A stretch of DNA of 35,608 nt. Source: Chitinophagaceae bacterium. GTDB lineage: Bacteria; Bacteroidota; Bacteroidia; Chitinophagales; Chitinophagaceae. Positions 12,801 to 35,083 of the stretch are shown in pieces; within the stretch, counting starts at the first letter, position 1, and each line of letters opens with the position of its first letter. The position numbers were made by a program, and so were the translations under genes. The notes below the pieces were generated by a model. The model searched no databases and was not told where the DNA came from. It saw only the letters and a list, made by a program, of their open reading frames with translations. The stretch covers positions 1-35,608 of the forward strand of contig JAICHT010000002.1 in assembly GCA_025924755.1 (NCBI GenBank), read 5' to 3'.

Positions 12801-14329
12801 TGATCGCTCAATACAGCCAATGGCACATCATTACCCATAGAGCCAATAGGTTCTTTACCATCCACAGCCATAGGCGTAATAATAGTTTCCAAATCTTCTT
12901 TAGAATAGCCAAATGCTTTTTGATATTTAAATACCTGGTCGGATTCTAACTCTGTAAACATTACCCTTGGATCCGGTAATTCCTCCAAACTTATTTTATA
13001 TTTATTCAACCATTCGCCATAAGGTTTTTGTGAACAGATGGTTTGCTTTAATTCTTCATCACTAATAATACGGCCCTGCTCCAGATCCACCACAAACATT
13101 TTGCCCGGTTGCAAACGGCCTTTTTCCTTTACCAGTTTTGGATCAACAGGTAAAGCACCGGTTTCAGAAGCCATAATCACCCGGTCATCGGTAGTTACAC
13201 AATATCTTGAAGGGCGCAGGCCGTTTCTATCCAGTGTAGCGCCAATAATTTTACCATCGGTGAATGATATGGAAGCGGGTCCATCCCAGGGCTCCATAAA
13301 GGCCGCATGAAAATTGTAAAAAGCTTTTTTTGCCGGATCCATTTGTTCATTGCCATCCCAGGCTTCCGGTATCAGCATCATCATTACATGAGGCAGCGAA
13401 CGGCCGCATAAAGTAAGCAGTTCAATCATATTATCCAGACAAGCCGAATCGGACTGGCCACCGGTGATAATAGGTAGCAGCATATCCATTTCTTCTTTGG
13501 TAAAATACGGAGATGTAAAGCTGCGTTCACTGGTTTTTAACCAATTTAAATTGCCCTGAAGTGTATTGATTTCTCCATTATGTGCAATATAGCGGAACGG
13601 TTGCGCCAGCCGCCAGGAAGGAAACGTATTGGTAGCAAAACGGGAGTGTACCAAACCAAATGCCGATACTACCCGTTTGTTATTTAAATCAGGAAAATAA
13701 CTACGTACCTGCAAACTGGTTAGCTGACCTTTATATACAATTGTTTTGTAGGAAAGAGAAGCAATATAAAAACCGATAACGTCTTTCTTTATCGTGTTTT
13801 CGATAGTATGGGCTGCATAATTTCGAAGTAAAAATAGCTTGCGCTCAAAGTCTTCCGGATTAGTAATATGGTCGGGGCAGGCAATAAAAACCTGTTCCAT
13901 TTCTGGTTCTACAGATAACGCTGTAGCGCCGATACCATCAGGGTTTACCGGCACTTTCCGGTAGGCCAATATTTCCAGCCCCAACTTTTCCGCCGCACGG
14001 TTAAACACATCTCGACACTCTTCTTTGGTGCGAATGTCTTTTGGAAAAAATAATACACCGACCCCATATTTGCTAAACGGCGGAAGGTGAACACCCAGTT
14101 TTACACATTCATCAAAGAAGAATTCATGTGGGGTTTGTATCATAATACCTGCACCGTCACCCGTATTGTTTTCGCACCCGCAAGCGCCTCTGTGCTCCAT
14201 ATTCTCCAGTATGGTTAACGCATCAGAAACATTCTGGTGTGATTTGTGGCTTTTGATATTTGCTACGAATCCGATACCGCAGGAGTCGTGCTCAAAAGCA
14301 GGAGAATATAAACCTTGTTCAATAGCCAT
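9806..14329 (-). CDS. gltB: glutamate synthase large subunit
   Basis: 1507 aa. N-terminal class II amidotransferase with HDSCGIGF (catalytic Cys after a short propeptide), FMN-binding/central region ([15 protein letters not shown]), GXGXG C-terminal domain. Confidence 0.97.
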
Positions 14330-14528
14330 TTTAAGCGCCTTTTAAATGTGATCAATAAAAATTAATGTTCAATATGGGCAAACAATCGCAAGCTCGTAAA
14401 ATACCAAAAAAATGGCAGCTTTCCTGTAGGATTTGGATGTATGGATTGTTAAATTATTATTTGTGTAACCGGCTTCCGTATTAGTGTTCATCTTTCCTTG
14501 CGCCGCACACTGCATCTCCTGTTCGTTA

Positions 14529-15812
14529 CTAAACCAAATAATCAAAAAGATTATCATTCTTATTGAGCTCAGTGTACTGAATGGTATATTTATTCATATT
14601 TTTTAGCAACGCCTTATAATCTTCTTTCGATCTTAATTCAATACCTACCAATGCATGACCGGTTTCTTTATTGTGCTTTTGCATATATTCAAACCGGGTA
14701 ATATCATCATCCGGGCCCAATACCAGGTTTACAAACTCTTTTAATGCGCCGGGACGTTGGGCAAATTTTATAAGAAAATAATGCTTCAATCCTTCATATT
14801 GCAGCGACCGTTCTTTTATTTCCTGCATACGGTCAATATCGTTATTGCTGCCACTGACAATGCATACTACATTTTTTCCTCTTATTACATCCGCATAATC
14901 ATCCAGCGCCGCAATAGAAAGGGCGCCGGCCGGTTCTACCACCAACGCATCTTCATTGTATAATTTTAATATGGTAGAGCATACTTTTCCTTCCGGTACC
15001 AGGTGCATTTCATCCAGCACTTCTTTGCAGATGGAAAAGGTAAGATCGCCCACCCTTTTCACCGCAGCGCCATCTACAAAACGTTCAATATTATCAAGTA
15101 TAACCGGGTGGCCGGCTTCCAGCGCTGCCGTCATAGAAGGAGCACCTTCCGGCTCCAGCCCGATGATTTTTGTTTTGGGAGAAAAAGTTTTAAAATAAGA
15201 ACCTACACCGGCACTTAAGCCACCGCCGCCTACTGGTATAAATACATAATCAATATCCGTTTGATCTTCTAATATCTCCACTCCAACTGTAGCCTGACCT
15301 TCAATGATACGATAATCATCAAAAGGCGGAATAAAGGTCATGCTGTGTTCCTGTGCATATTGCTTTGCGGCCACGGCACAGTCATCAAACGTATCGCCAA
15401 TCAGTTTTACTTCTATAAAGTCCTCACCAAACATTTTGGTTTGATATACTTTTTGGCCGGGCGTAATGCTGGGCATGAATACGACACCATTTACACCCAG
15501 CTTTCGACAGGAGTAAGCAAACCCTTGTGCATGATTGCCGGCACTGGCACATACCACGCCATTCTGCAATTGTTCTTTTGGCAACGAGCTAAGCATATTG
15601 TAGGCTCCCCGCAATTTGTAGGAGCGAACAATCTGCAGATCTTCTCTTTTTAAAAAAACATTGCAGGCATACTTTTTAGAAAGATTATGACTATAAACCA
15701 GTGGTGTTCTGGTCACCACTGGTTTTAACCGTTCTACCGCTTTTTCAAAATTTAGTTTTGTATTCGAAAACATAAATTTTGAAGCCGTGTTATTGATAGT
15801 TGTTTCAGACAT
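14529..15812 (-). CDS. ilvA: threonine ammonia-lyase (threonine dehydratase)
   Basis: PLP motif KREDLQIVRSYKLRGAYNM, CASAGNHAQGFA, GGGGLSAGVG, and an ACT-like C-terminus. Confidence 0.95.
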   Translation of the reverse strand: MSETTINNTASKFMFSNTKLNFEKAVERLKPVVTRTPLVYSHNLSKKYACNVFLKREDLQIVRSYKLRGAYNMLSSLPKEQLQNGVVCASAGNHAQGFAYSCRKLGVNGVVFMPSITPGQKVYQTKMFGEDFIEVKLIGDTFDDCAVAAKQYAQEHSMTFIPPFDDYRIIEGQATVGVEILEDQTDIDYVFIPVGGGGLSAGVGSYFKTFSPKTKIIGLEPEGAPSMTAALEAGHPVILDNIERFVDGAAVKRVGDLTFSICKEVLDEMHLVPEGKVCSTILKLYNEDALVVEPAGALSIAALDDYADVIRGKNVVCIVSGSNNDIDRMQEIKERSLQYEGLKHYFLIKFAQRPGALKEFVNLVLGPDDDITRFEYMQKHNKETGHALVGIELRSKEDYKALLKNMNKYTIQYTELNKNDNLFDYLV

Positions 15813-15819
15813 CTTTTAT

Positions 15820-16923
15820 TTAAAAGTTTGCTGCTACCAGGTCGGGTTTGTTTTCTTCAAACTCGCCAGTAGCTGGTTCTTGATTTTCAGGACGAAGGCT
15901 TCTTACTGTTTTTCCGGCCTGCCACATCTCGCTTTCACGTAATTCCTTCAATTCTTCATTTAGCTTTTCACGATAATCTGCCTGGCTGTTGGAGTCAATA
16001 GAACGCTGAGATTCTTTACCGGCTGCGACGCTTTCGTACAGTTCGGTAAATACTGGTAACGTAGCATCGCGAAACTTTTTCCACCAGTCTAATGCACCGC
16101 GCTGTGCAGTAGTAGAGCAGTTGGCATACATCCAGTCCATACCATTTTCAGCCACTAATGGCATTAATGACTGTGTTAACTCTTCGACTGTTTCATTGAA
16201 GGCTTCAGAAGGAGAGTGGCCTTTATCCCGCAATACCTGGTATTGGGCGGCAAAAATTCCCTGGATAGCACCCATAAGTGTACCGCGTTCACCGGTCAAG
16301 TCAGAAAATACTTCTTTACGGAAATCGGTTTCAAATAAGTATCCGCTACCAACAGCAATACCTAGCGCAATCACCCGGTCTTTTGCTTTTCCGGTGGCAT
16401 CCTGGTAGATGGCATAGCTACTGTTTAAGCCACGGCCTTGTAAAAACATTCTACGTAAGGAAGTACCAGAACCTTTAGGCGCTACTAAAAATACATCTAC
16501 ATCCTTTGGAGGAAGAATGCCGGTTTGCTCACTGAACGTAATACCAAAGCCATGCGAAAAATATAAGGCTTTGCCCGGAGTTAAATTCTTTTTAACTGTA
16601 GGCCACAATTGAATCTGGGCGGCATCGCTCAGCAAATAACAAATGATGGTGCCCCGCTCCAGTGCTTCTTCAATTTCAAACAACGTTTTGCCGGGTACGA
16701 AGCCATCCGCTACTGCTTTATCCCACGATTTGGAATCTTTGCGCTGACCGACAATTACATTAATACCATTGTCTCTTTGGTTTAATGCCTGTCCAGGACC
16801 TTGCACGCCGTAGCCTATAACCGCTACCACTTCATTCTTTAACACTTCCTGAGCTTTGGAAAGAGGAAACTCCTCGCGGGTTACTACATTTTCTTCTACG
16901 CCGCCGAAATTCAATTTTGCCAT
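15820..16923 (-). CDS. ilvC: ketol-acid reductoisomerase
   Basis: VAVIGYGVQGPGQALNQRDNG Rossmann motif, VAPKGSGTSLR, SDLTGERGTLMGA. Confidence 0.95.
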   Translation of the reverse strand: MAKLNFGGVEENVVTREEFPLSKAQEVLKNEVVAVIGYGVQGPGQALNQRDNGINVIVGQRKDSKSWDKAVADGFVPGKTLFEIEEALERGTIICYLLSDAAQIQLWPTVKKNLTPGKALYFSHGFGITFSEQTGILPPKDVDVFLVAPKGSGTSLRRMFLQGRGLNSSYAIYQDATGKAKDRVIALGIAVGSGYLFETDFRKEVFSDLTGERGTLMGAIQGIFAAQYQVLRDKGHSPSEAFNETVEELTQSLMPLVAENGMDWMYANCSTTAQRGALDWWKKFRDATLPVFTELYESVAAGKESQRSIDSNSQADYREKLNEELKELRESEMWQAGKTVRSLRPENQEPATGEFEENKPDLVAANF

Positions 16924-17039
16924 TTTTTACGTTTTAAGTTGTTTGTTATACGTTGTAAGTATTTATTCTGAACTGTATTTTTAGGATAAATGAGATTGAT
17001 GTGATACTATAATCATTCAACATTCATCATATATAATTC

Positions 17040-17636
17040 TTAATATCCTGTATCCGGAAATAGTTCTTCCTGCAAACTCAGGTATTCATTTTCCACTACT
17101 TCTTCGGCAGGTTCGGCCTGCTCAAATTCTTTTACTTTTTCATGGAAGCCTTTGCTTTCCTTTATGATTGCTACTCTTGCGCTGCGTACAAATTCTATCA
17201 GTTCATAAGGTGCTAATACTTCTACCAGTTTATCGGTTTCTTCACGGTGGCCGGTCGTTTCAAAAACCGTGTAATCTTTACGGATTACCACAGCCCTTGC
17301 TCCATATTGGCGTAATAACCGTTCTACCTTTACCTTTTCGGCAATTACTTCAGTAGGTACCTTATACAATGCCAGCTCCTGCCATACAATTTCATCAGCC
17401 GTATTAAAATAAGCCTTCAATACTTCCACCTGTTTCTCAATCTGGCGTATTAGTTTACGCACCACGTCTTCGGTTTCGTTGATAACAATAGTAAAACGGT
17501 GAATGCTTTCTACTTCGGAAGGTGAGGTATTGAGGCAGGCGATATTAATTTTTCTTCTGGAAAAAATAATAGCAATGCGGTTCAATAATCCAATATGGTT
17601 TTCAGTATAAACTGTGATGGTATATTCTTGTTTCAT
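17040..17636 (-). CDS. ilvN: acetolactate synthase small subunit
   Basis: ACT-domain start EYTITVYTENHIGLLNRIAIIFSRRKINI, located between ilvB and ilvC. Confidence 0.93.
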   Translation of the reverse strand: MKQEYTITVYTENHIGLLNRIAIIFSRRKINIACLNTSPSEVESIHRFTIVINETEDVVRKLIRQIEKQVEVLKAYFNTADEIVWQELALYKVPTEVIAEKVKVERLLRQYGARAVVIRKDYTVFETTGHREETDKLVEVLAPYELIEFVRSARVAIIKESKGFHEKVKEFEQAEPAEEVVENEYLSLQEELFPDTGY

Positions 17637-17674
17637 TGTTTTTGCTTTAAGCGTTTGGCAATTTGTCTTTTCTT

Positions 17675-19438
17675 TTATGCTAATCGTATTTCACTTACAC
17701 TGCACCCTTGCGGCACCATTGGAAATACATTGTTTTCTTTGCCCACCATTACCTCCAGCAAGTACGAACCATTATGGTTTAGCATCGTTTGTAACGCCTG
17801 CCTTACTTCTTCTCTTTTCGAGATTTTAGCGCCTTCAATGCCATATCCTTTCGCTACCATAATGTAATCGGGACTGGTGATGTTTACGAATGAATAGCGC
17901 CTGTCGTGAAACAACTCCTGCCACTGGCGCACCATACCCAAAAACTGGTTATTCAGAATCATGATTTTTACGTTCACGCCGCTTTGCATAATAGTACCCA
18001 GTTCCTGTATCGTCATCTGTATACCGCCATCGCCAATAATAGCTATTACGGTTCTGTCCGGTGCACCGAACTTAGCACCGATAGCAGCCGGCAAGCCAAA
18101 GCCCATCGTACCTAAGCCACCAGAAGTGATATTGCTCCTGGACTGGTTGAATTTGGCATAGCGGCAGGCTACCATTTGGTGCTGGCCCACATCAGTTACA
18201 ACAATAGCATTGCCTCCTGTTAATTCATTCATTTCGTTTACGATTTCCGCCATACTCAACACTTCTGAAGCAGGGTTCATTTCCGGAATAATGCATAGCT
18301 CTTCTTCCTTTTTTTGATAATCCTTAAACTTTTGTAGCCACTCGGTATGCTGTTTTTTCTCTATTAATTCGGTAAGTAAGGGAAGCGTTTCTTTACAATC
18401 GCCCCAAACCGGAACCGTAACTTTTACATTCTTATCAATTTCCGCAGGGTCAATATCAAGGTGAATGATTTTTGCCTGGCGTGCATATTTATCTAAGCGG
18501 CCGGTAACCCTGTCGTCGAAGCGCATACCGATAGCGATCAATACATCACACTCATTGGTTAGCACATTAGGGCCGTAATTACCATGCATACCTAGCATGC
18601 CCACATTGAGCGGATGGTCGGTAGGTATAGCGCTTTCACCCAGTATGGTCCAGGCGGCAGGCAAATTCCCTTTTTCAATAAATTTTTTAAATTCATTTTC
18701 AGCACTTCCCAGTACGACGCCTTGTCCCCAGATGACAAAAGGCTTTTCGGCATTATTGATTAATTCCGCAGCTTGTTGAATATATTCTTTACGTACAATT
18801 GGTTTTGGCCGGTAGCTGCGGATGTGATTGCATTTGGTATATCCCTGAAAGTCGAATTTTTGCAGCTGTGCATTTTTGGTAATATCAATCAGCACGGGCC
18901 CTGGCCTGCCGCTTTTGGCAATATAAAAAGCCTTGGCTAATACCTCTGGAATTTCAGTAGCATCGGTAACCTGGTAGTTCCATTTAGTAACCGGCGTAGT
19001 AATATTAACCACATCGGTTTCCTGGAAGGCATCCGTGCCTAACAGATGCGCAAACACCTGGCCGGTAATGCATACCAGTGGTGTACTGTCTATCTGCGCA
19101 TCGGCCAAACCGGTTACCAAATTGGTAGCACCGGGACCACTGGTAGCAAATACAATACCTACACGGCCGGAAGAACGGGCATAGCCTTGTGCCGCATGTA
19201 TGCCACCCTGCTCATGGCGCACCAGTATATGCTGTAGCTTGTCCATATAGTCATACAACGCATCATAGATAGGCATAATGGCTCCGCCGGGATAACCAAA
19301 AATAGTATCTACGCCTTCTTCAATCAACGCTTTTAACACGGCTTCCGAACCGCTTATTTGCTGGGGTGCTTGCCTGGCGGTAGTTTGAGCCGCGGTTTTG
19401 TTGTTAGAAAGCGTGGCTGTGTTTTCTTGTAAATTCAT
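17675..19438 (-). CDS. ilvB: acetolactate synthase large subunit
   Basis: ThDP enzyme: GYPGGAIMPIYDAL, RHEQGGIHAAQGYARSSG, GDGGIQMTIQELGT. Confidence 0.97.
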   Translation of the reverse strand: MNLQENTATLSNNKTAAQTTARQAPQQISGSEAVLKALIEEGVDTIFGYPGGAIMPIYDALYDYMDKLQHILVRHEQGGIHAAQGYARSSGRVGIVFATSGPGATNLVTGLADAQIDSTPLVCITGQVFAHLLGTDAFQETDVVNITTPVTKWNYQVTDATEIPEVLAKAFYIAKSGRPGPVLIDITKNAQLQKFDFQGYTKCNHIRSYRPKPIVRKEYIQQAAELINNAEKPFVIWGQGVVLGSAENEFKKFIEKGNLPAAWTILGESAIPTDHPLNVGMLGMHGNYGPNVLTNECDVLIAIGMRFDDRVTGRLDKYARQAKIIHLDIDPAEIDKNVKVTVPVWGDCKETLPLLTELIEKKQHTEWLQKFKDYQKKEEELCIIPEMNPASEVLSMAEIVNEMNELTGGNAIVVTDVGQHQMVACRYAKFNQSRSNITSGGLGTMGFGLPAAIGAKFGAPDRTVIAIIGDGGIQMTIQELGTIMQSGVNVKIMILNNQFLGMVRQWQELFHDRRYSFVNITSPDYIMVAKGYGIEGAKISKREEVRQALQTMLNHNGSYLLEVMVGKENNVFPMVPQGCSVSEIRLA

Positions 19439-19488
19439 TATTCAAAATTTTGTGCAAACCTGTTGGTCTACCTGTTTTTGTTTCTGTA

Positions 19489-21171
19489 TTATGCTTCATC
19501 CGTTACACATCCGTCAGCAGCCGTTTTCACCTGTTTTGCATATTTAAAAAGAATTCCTTTGGTAGCTTTTAAGGCCGGTTGCTTCCAGTTGCTTTTCCGC
19601 TTAGCTATTTCCTCGTCTGACACTTTCAATTTGATGGTATTGTGGATAGCATCCAGTTCAATCGTGTCCTCATCCTGTACCAATGCTATCAGACCGCCAT
19701 CATAGGCTTCGGGAGTAATATGGCCGACGACAAAACCATGCGTGCCGCCGCTGAATCTTCCATCGGTTATCAAGGCTACGGATTTGCCTAAACCCGCACC
19801 AATAAGCGCAGAGGTTGGCTTCAACATTTCGGGCATACCAGGGCCGCCCTTTGGCCCCACATAGCGGATTACCACTACATCGCCTGCTTTTATTTTTCCG
19901 GAATTAATACCATTGATTAATTCAAATTCGCCATCAAATACACGGGCCGGACCTTCAAAACGTTCGCCTTCTTTACCACTTATTTTAGCAACGCTTCCAC
20001 CTTCGGCAAGATTGCCATATAAGATTTGCAAATGACCAGTAGCCTTTATCGGGCTTTCCATCTTCCGGATGATTTGCTGCTTATCAAAGTCCAAATCCGG
20101 AGCACCGGCTAAATTTTCTGCAATTGTTTTACCGGTTACGGTGAGGCAATCGCCGTGCAATAAACCTTTTTGCAACAGGTATTTCATTACTGCAGGCAAG
20201 CCACCGTGTTCGTGCAAATCCTGCATTAAAAATTTACCACTGGGTTTAAAATCGGCTAATACCGGAATTCTATTACTTACCGCCTGAAAGTCGTCTTGTG
20301 TGAGTTCGATATCCACACTTTTTGCCATAGCTATCAAGTGCAATACTGCATTGGTAGAACCGCCCAAAACCATAATGGTTACTATCGCATTTTCGAATGC
20401 TTTCCGCGTCATGATATCTTTAGGTTTGATATCGTGCTGAAGCAGGTATTGAATAGCTTTACCAGCAGCTAAACATTCCTTTCTCTTCTCTTCGCTAAGC
20501 GCCGGGTTGGACGAAGAATAAGGCAAACTCATTCCAAGCGCCTCAATAGCCGCAGCCATTGTATTAGCCGTGTACATGCCACCGCAGGCGCCGGCGCCGG
20601 GGCAGGCATGTTGTATGATACCTTTAAAATCTTTTTCGGATAACTGTCCGGCAATTTTTTGTCCCAATGCTTCAAAAGCAGAAACAATATTTAAATCCTG
20701 ACCGTTATAATGACCCGGTGCAATAGTGCCGCCATATACCATAATGGCCGGCCGGTTTAAGCGTCCCATTGCTATAATAGAACCGGGCATATTTTTATCA
20801 CAACCTGGCAGGGCAATTACAGCATCATAATACTGTGCGCCACAAACGGCTTCAATTGAATCGGCAATCAGGTCGCGGCTTACTAATGAATATCGCATGC
20901 CATCGGTACCATTACTCATGCCATCGCTCACGCCAATAGTATTAAAAATAAGGCCTATCAAATCGGCGTCGCCTACTCCTTGTTTTACAATACTAGCTAA
21001 GTCGTTCAGGTGCATATTACAGGTGTTGCCTTCATAGCCCATACTTGCAATACCTACCTGCGCTTTCTTTAAGTCTTCGTCGGTAAAACCAATGCCATAA
21101 TACATGGCCTGGGCAGCCGGTTGTGTTACATCCTGTGTAAGAACCTTGCTATATTTATTTAGTTCATTCAT
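19489..21171 (-). CDS. ilvD: dihydroxy-acid dehydratase
   Basis: [47 protein letters not shown]. Start codon overlaps the ilvE stop as ATGA. Confidence 0.97.
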
Positions 21172-22067
21172 GCTACAGCTAATGAGGCTTTAAATTCTTT
21201 CCCTAAAACTTTACATTTATATGCGTTTTGAATAACAGCGCCTAAGCTCTCACTCCATTTTTTCTTAAACGGCACTTTGTCTAATGAAGCAATACCTATC
21301 ACTTCTGCAGCCGTACCGCAGAAAAAAGCGCTGTCAGCACCGTGTGCTTCCTCGGGTTTGATTTGTTTTTCCACTACTTCGATGCCCAACTCTTCGCATA
21401 TCTCTAATACAGTAGCACGGGTGATACCGGGTAAGATGTTGCCCCGCTGTGGCGTATATAAAACATTATCCCGCTCAACAAAAATATTGGCGCCAGGACC
21501 TTCTGCTAAAAAGCCGTTCATATCCAGCAAAAGCGCTTCATCAAAACCTTTTGCTTTGGCTTCCTGGCTTGCCAGGATAGAATTTACATAATGGCCAGCG
21601 GCTTTGGCTTCCATTATAAAACCTTTTGGATTAGGACGTTGAAAAGAAGATGTCATTACTTTCAACAACGTTTCACCTAAAAAAGGTTCCATTTTCCAGG
21701 CTGCTATCATGAGGTACGATTGCTCGTTGGGATTGAACGACATATTGGGTGGTGCAAAAACCAATGGCCGTATATAGGCATCCTGAAGATTATTTCTTTC
21801 CAATACTGTATAGGTGGCTTCAATTAAAGATTCCGTAGTATAGGTATAAGGCATATTGAGCGCCTGTGCGGAAGCTTTTAAGCGATCATAGTGTTCTTTT
21901 TCCTTAAAGATTTTTGTTTCGCCATTTGCTGTTTTGTAGGAGCGGATGCCTTCAAATACGGCATATCCATAGTGCATAGACTGGCCAAACAAATCGCCTT
22001 TGGCTTCAGCGGCTTTTATATACGCACCATTGAGATAAATAATCGTGTTTTCATCGTAGTAATTCAT
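21168..22067 (-). CDS. ilvE: branched-chain amino-acid aminotransferase
   Basis: Class IV aminotransferase: [45 protein letters not shown]. Confidence 0.95.
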
Positions 22068-22156
22068 AACTTCCTTTTTGAGAATTGTTTCTTTAATACT
22101 TTATGGTTTACGTTTTGTTTATACTGAAATCCACTATGGTTTTTGTCCATAAAAAA

Positions 22157-22178
22157 ACCCGCCTTTTTGGAGGCGGGT
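22157..22178 (-). terminator. intrinsic terminator (attenuator) in the ilv leader
   Basis: Minus strand ACCCGCCTCCAAAAAGGCGGGTTTTTTT, an 8-bp G/C-rich stem followed by a T7 tract. It lies between the leader ORF and the ilvE start. Confidence 0.9.
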
Positions 22179-22197
22179 CGTGTATTTCTTTATTACG

Positions 22198-22296
22198 TTA
22201 TATACAAGTTCCACCTCCATACAGTGCTGGAATAATAATGACTACCACAATAATTATTGTAGTGTCGATGATCTTATTCAAGCTGCTTCTTAACAT
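22198..22296 (-). CDS. ilvL: ilv operon leader peptide, MLRSSLNKIIDTTIIIVVVIIIPALYGGGTCI (32 aa)
   Basis: Manual translation from ATG at 22296 to TAA at 22200-22198: 9 Ile, 3 Val and 3 Leu, with the block IIIVVVIII, directly upstream of an intrinsic terminator and ilvEDBNCA. Below the length cutoff of the ORF track. Confidence 0.88.
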   Translation of the reverse strand: MLRSSLNKIIDTTIIIVVVIIIPALYGGGTCI

Positions 22297-22314
22297 GAAG
22301 GATGTTTATTGCTG

Positions 22315-22345
22315 CTAATATACAACCTTCTGTTTTATATATAAA
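22315..22345 (-). promoter_or_regulatory. candidate promoter for the ilv leader
   Basis: Minus strand TTTA-N19-TATATTAG, one mismatch in each box from TTTG/TAnnTTTG, in the leuB-leader gap. Confidence 0.35.
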
Positions 22346-22357
22346 GAACTATTTCTT

Positions 22358-23473
22358 TTAAATAATGGTTGATTTTCTCAACTCAATATTAGAATGATTT
22401 ACCGCCGATGGTATTCTTCCACTTACATGATCGCTTATCAACTCGCCGATTGTAGAAGTGAAATACGAATTTACCGGGTCAATATCCCGCGTTACAAAAC
22501 CATTACTCAACGTCCACGAAACGGCTTCTCTTACTACCGCTGCCTCATCGGATAAACCAAAATGTTCCAGCAGCATCGCTGCAGATAAAATAGAACCTAT
22601 TGGATTGGCAATATCTTTACCCGCAGCTTGCGGATACGAACCATGAATGGGTTCAAACAAAGCCGTGGCTGCACCTACCGATGCGGAAGGCAACAATCCC
22701 AGCGAACCACTGATGACACTCGCTTCATCGCTTATAATATCGCCAAACATATTTTCAGTAAGAATTACATCAAACTGTTTGGGGTTAACAATGATCTGCA
22801 TCGCAGCATTATCTACAAACATATAATCTACCTGCACATCGGCATATTGCGGTACAATTTCCTGCACCACTTTGCGCCACAACCTCGATGTTTCCAATAC
22901 GTTTGCCTTATCTACCAGCGTTAATTTCTTTTTTCGTTGTTGCGCTGCTTTAAATGCTAAGTGGGCAATGCGTTCAATTTCGCTTTTAGTATAAATGCAT
23001 AAATCAGAGGCTTCCGTATATGCTTCATTTACTTTTTTCTCGCCAAAATAAATACCACCTGTTAGTTCGCGATATACTACAAAGTCCACGCCTTCCAGTT
23101 GCTTTTCTTTTAGCGGTGATAAATGACTTAAAGAAGGGTAGGTGCTTACGGGCCGTATATTAGCAAACAACTGCAAAGACTTTCTAAGCTTCAGCAAGCC
23201 CTGCTCCGGACGCACTTTTGCCGTTGGGTCGTTATCATATTTCGGATGGCCTATAGCGCCAAATAAGATGGCATCACTTTTTAAACAAACATCCAGTGTT
23301 TCATCGGGCAACGGGTTACCGGTTTTGTCAATCGCATCCGCACCCATCAGGCAATAGGTATATATAAATTCTTGCTTAAATTGTTCGGCAATCGCATTCA
23401 ATACTATTATCGATTGTTGCGTTACTTCGGGCCCTATTCCATCTCCTAATATCACTGCAATATTCTTCTTCAT
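22358..23473 (-). CDS. leuB: 3-isopropylmalate dehydrogenase
   Basis: MKKNIAVILGDGIGPEVTQQS start at 23473 (track ORF extends to 23497); TGGIYFGEK; GSLGLLPSASVG; EPIHGSYPQAAGKDIANPIG. Confidence 0.95.
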   Translation of the reverse strand: MKKNIAVILGDGIGPEVTQQSIIVLNAIAEQFKQEFIYTYCLMGADAIDKTGNPLPDETLDVCLKSDAILFGAIGHPKYDNDPTAKVRPEQGLLKLRKSLQLFANIRPVSTYPSLSHLSPLKEKQLEGVDFVVYRELTGGIYFGEKKVNEAYTEASDLCIYTKSEIERIAHLAFKAAQQRKKKLTLVDKANVLETSRLWRKVVQEIVPQYADVQVDYMFVDNAAMQIIVNPKQFDVILTENMFGDIISDEASVISGSLGLLPSASVGAATALFEPIHGSYPQAAGKDIANPIGSILSAAMLLEHFGLSDEAAVVREAVSWTLSNGFVTRDIDPVNSYFTSTIGELISDHVSGRIPSAVNHSNIELRKSTII

Positions 23474-23486
23474 GATCGCTGTTCTT

Positions 23487-24971
23487 TTACGCGGCAATTA
23501 TTTGTTTAATATTCCTATTACTGATAACGGCGTGGCCGTTGTTTAATTCTAATTTTTTATCAATGCAAGATGGTATTTCTCCATCGTAATGGCTTACATA
23601 TATCAATGTTTTATTGGCCCGGACGCACAATTCGTCAATGAGGCTGTTAAACTCCTGCGTTAGCTGGTCATCCAGTCCCTGGCAGGGTTCATCTAATATT
23701 AAAAGCGGCGGATTTTTTACCAAGGCTCTTGCCAGCAATACCAGTCGCTGCATACCGGACGATAAAGAAGAAAGCGGCTTGTGCTGCACCGATTTTAAAT
23801 CGAAATATGCCAGCCATTGTGCTAATACCTGTTCCTGTGCGGTGCTTAATGCACGATACAATCCCATGGTATCAAAAAAGCCGGAAGCAACTGCATGATA
23901 GCAACTCAGTCCTCTATCGAAATACATATGCACTTCCGGTGAAATGTAACCTATGTTTTTCTTAATATCCCATATGCTTTCACCGCTGCCTCTTCTTTTG
24001 TCAAACAAATAAATTTCATTAGCATACGCCTGCGGATTATCGCCGGTGAGTAAGCTTAACAAAGTAGATTTTCCCGCACCGTTCGGACCTTTCAATAACC
24101 ATTTTTCACCGCGGGCTACCTGCCAGTTGATATTATTTAATATTACTTTTTCACCATACTGTACCGAAGTGTTTTTAATAGCAATGGCGTTTGTAAAATC
24201 AGTCCGTTCTTTTGTATGTGGTATGGGTTTGTTGGCAAACAAAATGGGTTGAGCAATCTTATGCTGGAACTGGTTTTTTTTGCTAAAGCTTTTCAACTTT
24301 CCTTTACTTAACTCCGCAATATGGGTAATGCAGGCAGGAACTTCTCCGATGCTTGTTATGATGATAATGGCAGTATGAACCGCCAGTTCATTAATAACGG
24401 TATGCAATGCTTCGCGGCTTTTTACATCGAGGCCGATGAATGGCTGATCAAGTATTAAAACCTGGGGCTGATGTAGAAAAGCACTCACTAATTGAAACCG
24501 CTTGTGCTCGCCATTTGATAATTGAAGCAGCGGCGTATGCCTTCGATAGGAAAGGTTAAAGCGTTCAAGTACTTCTTGTATTCTGTTTCTTCTCTCATTA
24601 CTTTCTGTTATAACGGCAAGGGATATGCGCTCTAATTCCTGTTCGACTGTAGCTGCATCTTCTGCTTCCGTGCTGTTATACCGTTGCTGATAATAAAAAG
24701 AAGATTGATTGGATAAATTTTTAAAATGGTCTTGTTGCTCTACAAAAACAACCCGTCTGGTAGCAGTGGTTTCGCTACTGGATAGGTGAATAGTTCCTGC
24801 ATGAAAAACCTTTCCGGATAGAGCTTTTGCCAATGTGGTTTTGCCGCTTCCGGATTCGCCTGTAATCGCTAAATGTTGCTGCGGCTCTAGTTCAAAAGAG
24901 ATATCATCCAGCACAGTATTGCCTCCGAGTTTTACGGCAAGATTCTTTACTATGATAGATGGGTTGCTCAT
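23487..24971 (-). CDS. ABC ATPase with two nucleotide-binding domains (ModF/PhrA-like, no transmembrane domain)
   Basis: Walker A GESGSGKTT and GPNGAGKST; signatures LSNGEHKRF and LSSGMQRLVLLARAL; Walker B VLILDQP and LLILDEP. Confidence 0.85.
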   Translation of the reverse strand: MSNPSIIVKNLAVKLGGNTVLDDISFELEPQQHLAITGESGSGKTTLAKALSGKVFHAGTIHLSSSETTATRRVVFVEQQDHFKNLSNQSSFYYQQRYNSTEAEDAATVEQELERISLAVITESNERRNRIQEVLERFNLSYRRHTPLLQLSNGEHKRFQLVSAFLHQPQVLILDQPFIGLDVKSREALHTVINELAVHTAIIIITSIGEVPACITHIAELSKGKLKSFSKKNQFQHKIAQPILFANKPIPHTKERTDFTNAIAIKNTSVQYGEKVILNNINWQVARGEKWLLKGPNGAGKSTLLSLLTGDNPQAYANEIYLFDKRRGSGESIWDIKKNIGYISPEVHMYFDRGLSCYHAVASGFFDTMGLYRALSTAQEQVLAQWLAYFDLKSVQHKPLSSLSSGMQRLVLLARALVKNPPLLILDEPCQGLDDQLTQEFNSLIDELCVRANKTLIYVSHYDGEIPSCIDKKLELNNGHAVISNRNIKQIIAA

Positions 24972-24977
24972 ATTTTC

Positions 24978-25562
24978 TTACAAATTTGCTGCTTCAAATG
25001 CTTCTATATCTTTCCGAATACTTAGTAGAAAATCAATATCATCGTACCCGTTTAATAAACAGGTTTTTTTATAATTATTAATATCAAATGTTTCCTGGTC
25101 GCCTGTGGCGTCAATAGTAATGGTTTGGGCATCCAAGTTAATGGTTAACGTAGACTGATTATTTTGTTCAAATATTTTTTGTAAAAAGGCATCACTCACT
25201 TTTACCGGGAGCACGCCATTATTTAGCGCATTATTTTTAAAAATATCAGCAAAAAAACTGGATACCACTACTTTAAAACCGTAATCTAAAATAGACCAGG
25301 CAGCATGCTCCCTGGAAGATCCGCAACCAAAGTTTTTGCCAGCCACTAAAATTTCGCCGCTATATAATGGGTTATTTAAAACAAAATCTTTTTTGGGTTG
25401 CTGGTCATTATCATTTTCATATCGCCAATCGCGAAATAGATTTTTTCCAAATCCTTCCCGCGTAGTAGCTTTTAAAAATCGTGCAGGAATAATCTGGTCC
25501 GTATCTACATTTTCCAGCGGCAGCGGAACAAAAGTGCTATGTACTGTTTTTAATGGTTGCAT
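24978..25562 (-). CDS. leuD: 3-isopropylmalate dehydratase small subunit
   Basis: [36 protein letters not shown]. Confidence 0.95.
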
Positions 25563-25566
25563 TTTC

Positions 25567-26967
25567 TTAACTTAAAAATTCTCTTACATCGGTTACTACG
25601 CCTGTAATGGCTGCGGCAGCGGCTGTTAACGGGCTGGCCAATAAAGTTCGGGCTCCGGCGCCCTGCCTCCCTTCAAAGTTTCTATTGCTGGTAGAAATGC
25701 AATATTCACCTGCCGGCACCTTATCTTCGTTCATGCCTAAACAGGCGCTGCATCCTGCTTGTCTTACTTCGAAACCCGCTTCTTCAAATATCTGGTTCAG
25801 GCCTTCTGCCTTGGCTTGTGCCGCCACTTGTTGCGATCCGGGCACAATCATTACTTTTACATGCTCATTTTTTTTCTTGCCTTTTACCATATCAGCTACC
25901 AGCCGTAAATCCTCAATTCTCGAATTGGTGCAGCTACCTATAAATACATTTTGCACCCGCATTCCTTTTAACGGCTTTCCTTCCTCAAGGCCCATATACT
26001 GAAGCGCTTTGATAATGTTTTTCCGTTCACCTTCGGGCAGGGTTTCCGTAGCAGGAATTAAACTGTTAATAGCCATACCCAGGCCCGGATTGGTTCCATA
26101 GGTAATCATCGGCTCAATATCCGCAGCATTGATTGTTATTTCTTTATCAATCACGGCATCTGCATCGCTGTAAAGTTCTTTCCATTGCGCCACTTTCTTT
26201 TCCCATTCTTCACCCTGAGGTGCAAACGGACGACCTTTCAGATATTCAAATGTAGTTTCGTCCGGAGCAATCATTCCGCCACGGGCGCCCATTTCAATAC
26301 TCATATTGCAAACCGTCATACGGGCTTCCATGCTAAGAGAACGAATAGCCGAACCTGCATACTCTACAAAATAACCGGTAGCGCCGCTGGCAGATATAAG
26401 CGATATAATATAAAGAATAATATCTTTTGAAACGACTCCTTTATTGAGTTCGCCTTCCACGTTGATGCGCATGCGCTTTGGCTTCATTTGCAACAAGCAT
26501 TGCGATGCAAAAACCATTTCTACTTCGCTGGTGCCAATGCCAAAAGCAATAGAGCCGAAAGCGCCGTGTGTAGAGGTATGACTATCGCCACATACAATGG
26601 TCATACCCGGTTGCGTAATGCCCAACTCAGGACCAATCACATGTACGATGCCCTGGAAGGGATGCCCAAGGCCATATAATTCAAGACCAAATTTTTTACA
26701 ATTTTCAATTAACTGGTCTACCTGGTGTTTGGATAATTGATCTCTTATAGGTAAGTGCTGGTTGATAGTAGGCACATTATGATCGGCAGTTGCTACTATT
26801 TGCTGCGGCCTGAATAAAGGAAGTCTTCGCTTCTCCAAACCTGCAAACGCCTGCGGAGAAGTTACTTCGTGTATAAAATGCTTATCAATATACAATACAT
26901 CCGGGCCGCCCGGAATGGACTTTACCACATGCTTATCCCAAATCTTTTCAAATAGTGTTTTTGCCAT
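25567..26967 (-). CDS. leuC: 3-isopropylmalate dehydratase large subunit
   Basis: [58 protein letters not shown]. Confidence 0.96.
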
Positions 26968-26976
26968 AGGTCGTTT

Positions 26977-28149
26977 TTATGCGATGCTTGCAGTTTCTGG
27001 TTGATGTTGCTGTGCCAATTGCACCAGGTCTTCTTCTCTTACTTCTTTTTTAGAATCGGCTACTTTCAAAAATGCTTCATACAATACATCAATATCATTA
27101 CGGGTATATTGATATCCCAGTTTTTGAAAACGATAGGCTAGTGCACTGCGGCCGCTCCGGGCTGTCAATACAATCTTGCTTTGCTCTGCGCCTACTTCTT
27201 CCGGGTTGATCGTTTCATAAGTTTGCGCATCTTTTAAAAAGCCATCCTGGTGAATACCGGAGGAATGTGAAAACGCATTGGCACCTACAATGGCCTTATT
27301 AGGTTGCACCGGCATCCGCATTATTTCTGAAACCTGCCTGCTGAGCGGGTTTAAGCCTTTTGCATTAATATTAGTATAGTAGCCCAGATCTTTATGTTGT
27401 TTTAATATCATGACAACTTCTTCCAGCGAAGTATTGCCAGCTCTTTCGCCCAGGCCGTTCATAGTACACTCAATTTGCCGTGCGCCATTCATAACACCCG
27501 AAATAGAATTTGCCGTGGCCAATCCAAGGTCGTTATGGCAATGGCAGGAGATGATGGCTTTATCAATATTAGGAACATTATTTACCAGGAATGCTATTTT
27601 TTCACCATATTGATTTGGCAGGCAATAACCTGTAGTATCCGGAATATTAACGGTAGTAGCCCCTGCTGCAATTACCGCTTCAATCACACGGGCCAGGTAT
27701 TCGTTCTCGGTTCTGCCGGCATCTTCTGCATAAAACTCCACATCGTCGGTAAAGTTGCGTGCCCATTTTACACACTGCACCGCCCTTTTTAAAATATCTT
27801 CGCGAGTAGAATTGAATTTACTTTTTATATGATAGTCTGATGTGCCAATACCGGTGTGTATCCGGCAATGACGGGCCGGCTTTAAAGCCTGTGCCGCTAC
27901 TTCAATATCTTTTTGTACGGCACGGCTAAGGCCGCATACGGTGGCGTTTTTTACGATAGCTGCAATACGGCTTACCGATTCAAAATCGCCTGGGCTGGAT
28001 ATAGGAAACCCCGCCTCGATGATATCAACTCCTAAAGCTTCCAACTGCAACGCTAACTCCAGCTTTTCGGTAGTATTCAGTTTGCAACCGGGTACTTGTT
28101 CACCGTCGCGCAGCGTGGTATCAAAAATATATACTTTGTTTTGTGCCAT
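26977..28149 (-). CDS. leuA: 2-isopropylmalate synthase
   Basis: Likely start [21 protein letters not shown] at 28149; [40 protein letters not shown]. Confidence 0.94.
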
Positions 28150-28352
28150 AAGAAATTGAAATAAGGGGTAAAAAATGATGGCTAAATTTGCTATTAATTT
28201 CCTAACAGCACTATAACACAACCTTCCCTTTCAAATTTCGTTCAATTAATAGGGTGGCCGTATATAAAATAGTGTCAATTTTACGTTAGCGAAAGGAGTT
28301 AAAAGTTGTTAAAGTGCTTTACAGGCCTGATTTGTAGAAAAATTTATTTACG

Positions 28353-29906
28353 ATGCCCAACCGCTCTACTGATACCTTATATCAATTGATCCGCTCCCTG
28401 CAAAAGTCGGAAAAGCGTAATTTTAAGCTGTATGTAAATCGAAATTCGTCGAACGAAGATCTGAAAATAGTACAATTGTTTGATGCGCTGGACCGCATGA
28501 ATGAGTATGATGAAGAGGCATTGCTCCGGCGGGCACCTTCTATAAAAAAGCAGCAATTATCTAATATCAAAGCACACCTGTATAAACAGATACTGGCCAG
28601 CCTGCGGTTGCTGGAAAGCGAAGAAAATATCGATATTCAATTACATGAGCAACTGGATTATGCCCGCATCCTGTATAATAAAGGATTGTATCATCAAAGC
28701 TTAAAAATACTTGACAAAATAAAGGAACACGCCAAAGCTACCAACCAGCTTAGCTTTTTGATGCAGGTATTGTTTTTAGAAAAAAAGATTGAATCGCTGC
28801 ATATTACCCGAAGTATGCAGGACCGTGCCGACCAACTTACCAGCGAAGCGGATAACGTAAACGAACACTTAACGGCCATTACAAAACTATCAAACCTGGC
28901 CCTGCAGCTATACAGTTGGTATATTAAAAACGGCCATGCCCGCAATGAAGCTGATGAAATATCTATTACCCGGTTTTTTAAAGAAAACCTGCCCGCGGAA
29001 TCATTTAATAAAAAGGGTTTTTACGAGGAGTTATATTTATCGCAAAGCTATTGCTGGTATGCTTTCATTCGACAGGATTTCTTAATGTATTACCGCTATA
29101 CGCAAAGATGGGTGGATGTATTTTACGAGCAGCCTTTTATGATTGATATTGAAACAGCTCATTTTATAAAGGGGCTGCATAATTTAATAAGTGCACATTT
29201 TGATTTACTGAATTATAAGAAGTTTGATGATACCTTAATAAAGTTTGAAGCATTTGCAGCTTCGCCTACGGTTACTGAAAACGACAACAACCGCATACAG
29301 GTTTTTGTGTATTTGTATATAGCAAAAATTAACCAGCATTTTTTGCACGGCACCTTTACCGAAGGATTAAAACTGGTGCCTTACATTGAAGAAAAGCTGG
29401 TGGAGTATCTGTTATACCTGGATCGCCACCGCATATTGGTCTTTTATTACAAAATAGCTTCATTATATTTTGGCAGCGGCGATTATGGAAGAACGATAGA
29501 TTATCTCAATAAGATCATTAACTGGAAAGTTGATTTGCGAACCGACCTGCAATGCTATGCCCGGTTGCTGCATTTGATTGCTCATTATGAGTTAGGTAAT
29601 TTTGAAATATTAGAATATCTTATCAAATCGGTTTATCGCTTTATGGCCAAGCTGGGTAATTTAAGTGTAGTGGAAGAAGAGATATTTTAATTTCTGCGCA
29701 ACTCCTTTCATTTATCGGCCCGGCAGTTAAAACCTGAATTTGAAAAACTGCTGTGCCGGTTAAAGCAAATTGAGAACAGCCGTTTTGAAACCCGCGCTTT
29801 CGCTTATCTTGATATTATTTCGTGGCTGGAAAGTAAAATAAGCAGCAAGCCAGTACAAGATATTATCCGTGAAAAATATATAAATGCATCCGAAAAACGG
29901 AAGTAA
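28353..29906 (+). pseudogene. TPR-like helical hypothetical protein interrupted by an in-frame TAA at 29688-29690 (445 aa as called; 517 codons if the stop is bridged)
   Basis: After the TAA the same frame continues 71 codons as FLRNSFHLSARQLKPEFEKLLCRLKQIENSRFETRAFAYLDIISWLESKISSKPVQDIIREKYINASEKRK*, with protein-like composition. Confidence 0.65.
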
Positions 29907-34924: not shown

Positions 34925-34943
34925 CGCCAGTTCTTACCAAACA

Positions 34944-35050
34944 CTTATCAAGAAAGGCTGAGGGATATGGCCCTTTGAAGCCTTGGCAACCTATTAAGCA
35001 GCAGTTTAATAAGGTGCTAACTCCATCACGTATTATGCGTGAGAGATAAG
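34944..35050 (+). promoter_or_regulatory. SAM-I (S-box) riboswitch aptamer
   Basis: CTTATCaagaaaggctGAGGGATatGGCCCttTGAAGCCttGGCAACC...aaGGTGCTAAcTCC...gaGAGATAAG. Conserved S-box core, with P1 arms CTTATC/GATAAG. Confidence 0.93.
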
Positions 35051-35083
35051 TCAGATCCAGCTTTATAACTAAATTTTTATAAG

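Follow-up and report, generated by a model that had tools for sequence, protein, structure and literature searches.

The operon ilvE-ilvD-ilvB-ilvN-ilvC-ilvA of this Chitinophagaceae bacterium is very probably (at roughly 0.93) controlled by a ribosome-mediated transcription attenuator that would respond to charged tRNA-Ile and tRNA-Val. The element lies on the minus strand of the window, by which we mean the whole 35,608-nt stretch of DNA that was analysed, and its parts follow one another as a promoter box, a leader ORF carrying region 2 at its end, a stop codon, a terminator and ilvE. Ribosome-mediated attenuation has long been known as a kind of regulation. An earlier note on this DNA had proposed the leader peptide from the letters alone; it mentioned neither the terminator nor the promoter box, nor the complementarity that would form the antiterminator.

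The minus strand carries, in order, leuA, leuC, leuD, an ABC ATPase gene, leuB, the leader, ilvE, ilvD, ilvB, ilvN, ilvC and ilvA, followed by glutamate synthase genes. The upstream neighbour leuB (22358..23497, TIGR00169) is outside the control of the attenuator and ilvE (21168..22067, NCBIfam PRK06606/TIGR01122) is the first controlled gene. Between the leuB stop at 22358 and the ilvE ATG at 22067 lies a gap of 290 nt which contains the leader ORF (22198..22296). Translation of this ORF gives the 32 residues MLRSSLNKIIDTTIIIVVVIIIPALYGGGTCI*, as claimed, and both the spacing of 131 nt from its stop at 22198 to the ilvE ATG and the composition of nine Ile, three Val and three Leu codons proved accurate. 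It has no Shine-Dalgarno sequence and is kept in relatives. Its control codons (22231..22257) read ATA ATT ATT GTG GTA GTC ATT ATT ATT, or III VVV III. A chance ORF was considered and dismissed on its conservation and on the outcome of shuffling the 290-nt gap 20,000 times, which never produced an ATG ORF with a 9/9 Ile/Val run.

Between the ORF and ilvE stands an intrinsic terminator, CCCGCCUCC-loop-GGCGGG-U7 (22179-22151). It was scored as a terminator-like site (GACCCGCCTCCAAAAAGGCGGGTT followed by T's) that begins 19 nt past the ORF and has the top score in 14000-29000. The sequence GGAGGUGG at the end of the ORF is complementary to the 5' arm of this terminator. More precisely, region 2 (GGAGGTGG, 22211..22218, minus strand), which starts 12 nt past the last Ile codon, is complementary with one G-U pair to CCGCCTCC in that arm and pairs with region 3 (CCCGCCTCC, 22169..22177, minus strand). 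Region 3 is common to the antiterminator and the terminator, the latter being completed by region 4 and the U tract (GGCGGGTTTTTTT, 22151..22163, minus strand). With the terminator 5' arm shared, the two structures are mutually exclusive, and folded alone the antiterminator segment reaches -16.1 kcal/mol and the terminator -14.3 kcal/mol.

The element is widespread among relatives. We examined 150 genomes of the family, of which 56 have a close ilvE, and read 55 ilvE upstream regions. A leader followed by a terminator is present in 50 of the 55; a script found 46, and a covariance model recovered four more in which the terminator finder of the script had overlooked the site. Four loci (L030, L031, L042 and L055) are without the element, leuB and ilvE being close together there, and in a fifth (L056) it is weak. 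The covariance model, R1, was built from 45 members and has one match apiece in 89 of the 150 family genomes; 52 of the 56 genomes with a close ilvE are among them. In the genome of the window it gives a single strong match of 112 bits, the next reaching 29.8, and matches below 30 bits in this genome include ordinary terminators. Additionally, a DNA pattern made of regions 2, 3 and 4 only, and therefore blind to codons and genes, was scanned over 85,462 GTDB species genomes and returned 58 stretches. Chitinophagaceae, uncultured Bacteroidota or related records account for nearly all of them, and Stutzerimonas for one; 55 are Ile/Val leaders, and in 52 of these the next gene matched is ilvE or ilvD. 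Conservation across relatives was a check that the earlier note had asked for, and an ORF with its Ile/Val run precedes ilvE or ilvD in most members, with drift at third codon positions. Because the ORF and the Ile/Val codons are present in most of the family, the lack of conservation that the note had named as counting against its proposal is not what was found. In one genome of the window's own genus (G005) the leuB-ilvE gap has lost its leader; an ilv-type leader is found there before a small ACT-domain gene (IlvM/N-like, PF13710; L229), 500 kb from ilvE.

Conservation of the pairing can be followed in the same alignments. Across 45 relatives the terminator helix is 98.6% paired and shows 14 double-change cells where shuffles give 1.0, and in 45 sequences the helix between regions 2 and 3 has 90.8% standard pairs, against 48-58% when one strand is slid along the other. 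One locus (L009) retains GGAGGTGG with a shifted reading frame (REVV*); in four others (L041, L043, L047 and L053) both pairing partners are altered. The own partners of region 2 and region 3 beat swapped partners in 4,999 of 5,000 permutations within the family and in 5,000 of 5,000 for 19 leaders of other Bacteroidota families, counts which are not strict probabilities because the loci share kinship. Dinucleotide shuffling of the upstream segment is a weaker control because region 3 is GC-rich: region 3 finds 10.1 pairs where 6.4 are expected, and 8.9% of shuffles do as well. These patterns point to selection acting on the RNA pairing between regions 2 and 3.

Selection appears to act on the Ile/Val codon classes as well. 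Over the nine codons that end the block, identity among relatives is 97% at position 2, 70% at position 1 and 59% at position 3, and the changes interchange Ile, Val and Leu. Among 45 relatives, Ile makes up 21.5% of leader codons compared with 6.2% in ilvE, and Val 15.2% compared with 5.3%, whereas Leu is not enriched (7.4% compared with 8.2%). Leu as the main signal was dismissed on this ground. The earlier claim that the leader senses branched-chain aminoacyl-tRNA in general would thus hold for two of the three amino acids, Ile and Val, and probably not for Leu. Two codons are over-used, GTC for Val (29% vs 8%) and CTA for Leu (13% vs 3%), as if they served to slow the ribosome. Region 2 follows the last Ile/Val codon at a distance of 11-13 nt in 31 of the 45 leaders, close to what a ribosome spans past its A site.

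Promoter-like elements stand directly upstream of the leader. The sequence TATATTAG at 22315..22322 on the minus strand, about 26 nt before the ATG, resembles the sigma-A promoter box of Bacteroidota (consensus TAnnTTTG) and would be the -7 box; the form TAnnTT[TCA][GA] occurs in all 45 upstream regions. An upstream promoter-like element, AGTTCTTT (22343..22350, minus strand, the -33 region), is kept in family leaders: AG[TC]TCTT is found in 42 of 45, and in 40 of 45 it is properly spaced from the -7 box, compared with 0.08% of shuffles. In Flavobacterium psychrophilum the sigma-A box TAnnTTTG is reported at -12 to -5 (PMC9723704), so transcription here would start near 22310 and the 5' UTR would be about 14 nt long. 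An inverted repeat, GAAGGnTGT...ACATCCTTC, surrounds the -7 box (22296-22330 of the window) in loci L001 and L029, with a partial copy in L040 and L052; it may be an operator or have arisen by chance.

The ORF, the terminator, the complementarity between them, and their conservation and co-variation were computed directly, and from these we infer promoter use, translation, stalling and termination as follows. Transcription would begin some 14 nt upstream of the leader ATG, with a ribosome trailing RNA polymerase through the leader. A shortage of Ile- or Val-tRNA would make the ribosome stall in the III VVV III run, and its front edge would leave GGAGGUGG exposed to pair with CCGCCUCC once that is transcribed; this pairing would capture the terminator 5' arm and allow read-through into ilvE. 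When both Ile and Val are plentiful, the ribosome would reach the stop codon and mask GGAGGUGG, CCCGCC would then pair with GGCGGG and transcription would halt in the U tract. It is the complementarity of GGAGGUGG to the terminator 5' arm that leads us to expect an antiterminator upon stalling at Ile/Val codons.

Folding models agree with this scheme in several respects. An equilibrium model of truncated transcripts was used to fold the RNA not covered by a ribosome, which was placed at three positions or absent. In this model region 3 forms a median of 0.07 upstream pairs with the ribosome at the stop codon, and 9.5-9.9 with it stalled at the last or middle control codon. With no ribosome region 3 has 9.9 upstream pairs and the antiterminator forms in all modelled sequences, so untranslated RNA should read through. 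A protector hairpin 1:2 was not predicted in the folding models of the leaders, and we hold with moderate confidence that the default without translation would be read-through with no such hairpin. Folding at full length favours the terminator in most relatives even when the ribosome is stalled (median 0.96; 0.26 for the window itself), and therefore the switch must be co-transcriptional if it operates. The features by which ribosome-mediated attenuators are recognized in sequence, namely a codon run, a terminator, an exclusive antiterminator and biosynthetic genes downstream, are all present: the downstream genes ilvE, ilvD, ilvB, ilvN, ilvC and ilvA (ilvE or ilvD in relatives) make the amino acids that would be sensed. 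On these features the element can be placed in the class of ribosome-mediated attenuation with high confidence.

Other explanations were weighed against attenuation. The ORF product could be a functional small hydrophobic peptide acting in trans, which we consider improbable. Its amino-acid sequence, xIIIVVVIIIPAxxGGG, is well conserved, and a precedent is described in peTrpL, a leader peptide that acts in trans (PMC7298713). However, the Gly run is preserved as RNA and not as protein in L009 and L041, a hydrophobic stretch of nine residues is short for a membrane span, and leaders of other Bacteroidota families have the same codons and architecture with a different peptide. Still less probable is that the hairpin is a plain terminator of the leu transcript and the upstream Ile/Val ORF incidental. 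In favour of that reading, the element sits between leuB and ilvE and has the strongest terminator of the vicinity. Against it, the Ile/Val codons and region 2 are kept together with the terminator, a promoter box stands upstream of it, and the element also occurs without leuB upstream (L035, L037, L047 and L053) and before the ACT-domain gene far from ilvE in L229. Least likely of all, at the very edge of plausibility, is that a riboswitch, T-box or RNA-binding protein exerts the control and the ORF is a by-product: such systems use similar terminator/antiterminator switches, but the codon-position pattern requires translation, and the Rfam search of the window gave no T-box and reached the gathering threshold for one family only, a SAM riboswitch away from this element.

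Among known systems, attenuation at this locus resembles the ilvXGMEDA attenuator of E. coli, which also has a 32-aa Ile/Val-rich leader with VVVIIIP ahead of ilv genes including ilvE and ilvD. The statement in the earlier note that VVVIIIP occurs in E. coli IlvL was correct (MTALLRVISLVVISVVVIIIPPCGAALGRGKA in NC_000913). IlvL is, however, richer in Leu codons and extends into a long tail (PPCGAALGRGKA), whereas the leader described here has no Leu enrichment and carries region 2 inside the end of the ORF. The note had left the choice between a conserved leader and convergence; the leader is conserved within the family, while its likeness to that of E. coli is probably convergent. VVVIIIP is common to both, leaders in other Bacteroidota families look different, Rfam leader models stay below threshold and a search for an RNA-level family link to the E. 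coli ilv leader found none. The differing leaders of the other families favour convergence as likelier than homology, which is possible. Sub-threshold Rfam matches on the element include Phe_leader (RF01859, 24.5 bits), Thr_leader (RF00506, 21.8 bits) and Trp_leader (RF00513, 20.1 bits), far below the respective gathering scores of 55, 55 and 41, and no Rfam family reached its gathering score on the element. In the E. coli trp system the protector hairpin 1:2 releases the terminator in the absence of translation, and no equivalent is predicted for the element here. The ilvBNC attenuator of Corynebacterium glutamicum is similar in its start very near the leader ATG, its overlapping antiterminator and terminator and its Val/Ile/Leu codons, but its leader (MTIIRLVVVTARRLP) is unrelated in sequence and it has a third, anti-antiterminator hairpin that is not predicted here (PMC11857589).

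Within the phylum, a search of open literature for ilv attenuation in Bacteroidota gave general remarks only, and no published example from the family turned up. Attenuation in the phylum may already have been predicted by Lopatovskaya in 2010 (cited in PMC4833913). Leader-peptide attenuation has been reported for amino-acid operons of F. psychrophilum (PMC9723704), and sORFs in long 5' UTRs have been described (PMC7366714). The F. psychrophilum report shares with our element the phylum, the proposed mechanism and the position before amino-acid biosynthesis operons; its main text names no ilv leader and gives no sequence, and the leader described here is a different, family-specific element.

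Several other features of the window and its genome deserve mention. In LeuA (390 aa, 26977-28149, minus strand) Pfam recognizes the catalytic and post-catalytic domains; the regulatory domain at the C-terminus (LeuA allosteric) has no match, and feedback by leucine may therefore be missing or located in another place. The gap upstream of leuA was inspected for another attenuator and held no minus-strand terminator-like site and no visible candidate. Between leuD and leuB (23487-24971, minus strand) lies an ABC ATPase resembling the molybdate protein ModF (PRK10938, below cut-off), an odd neighbour in a leu operon. The SAM riboswitch (RF00162, 86.6 bits) is at 34942-35052 on the plus strand, near the end of the window.

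Weak R1 matches turned out to be other amino-acid leaders of the same layout. They include a Thr/Ile leader (MYNSTIIITIIITTGRNLAEE; L254, 1501-1628) before an aspartokinase gene, a His leader (MNLLQLHHHRHHHTCSQARW; L251) before an apparent hisG and a Phe/Tyr leader (..FYYFFFYFSFPEGGG..; L260) before a prephenate dehydratase gene. The genome of the window has a Lys/Thr-rich leader, MKKTTYTKRIKKHFSDREGA, before asd (L154/L261; G000:C58:7142-7208, plus strand), and similar leaders, which in relatives typically read MKHTKRTKK.., stand upstream of asd in 29 of the 30 family genomes examined (L262-L290). The leader goes with GGGAAGG...CCTTCCC-loop-GGGAAGG-T7, making it a candidate Lys/Thr attenuator. 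Leaders in other families were screened with loose criteria and no shuffles, which means that individual cases among them could be due to chance. It is conceivable, at somewhat less than even odds, that leader peptides of one design make up a broad attenuation regulon in Bacteroidota (ilv, thr, his, phe and the Lys/Thr type before asd), in which the 3' end of a near-leaderless leader ORF would also serve as the antiterminator, no protector hairpin would form and untranslated RNA would be "on."

Overall, the leader is a gene of the kind that annotation pipelines are likely to miss, and the RNA model finds the element in most members of the family, and no Rfam family covers it. Translation initiation in Bacteroidota largely proceeds without Shine-Dalgarno sequences, and the attenuator proposed here supports the idea of a coupling between ribosome and RNA polymerase tight enough for attenuation in such a phylum. 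For this large environmental family it would provide a precise and testable switch for Ile/Val synthesis.
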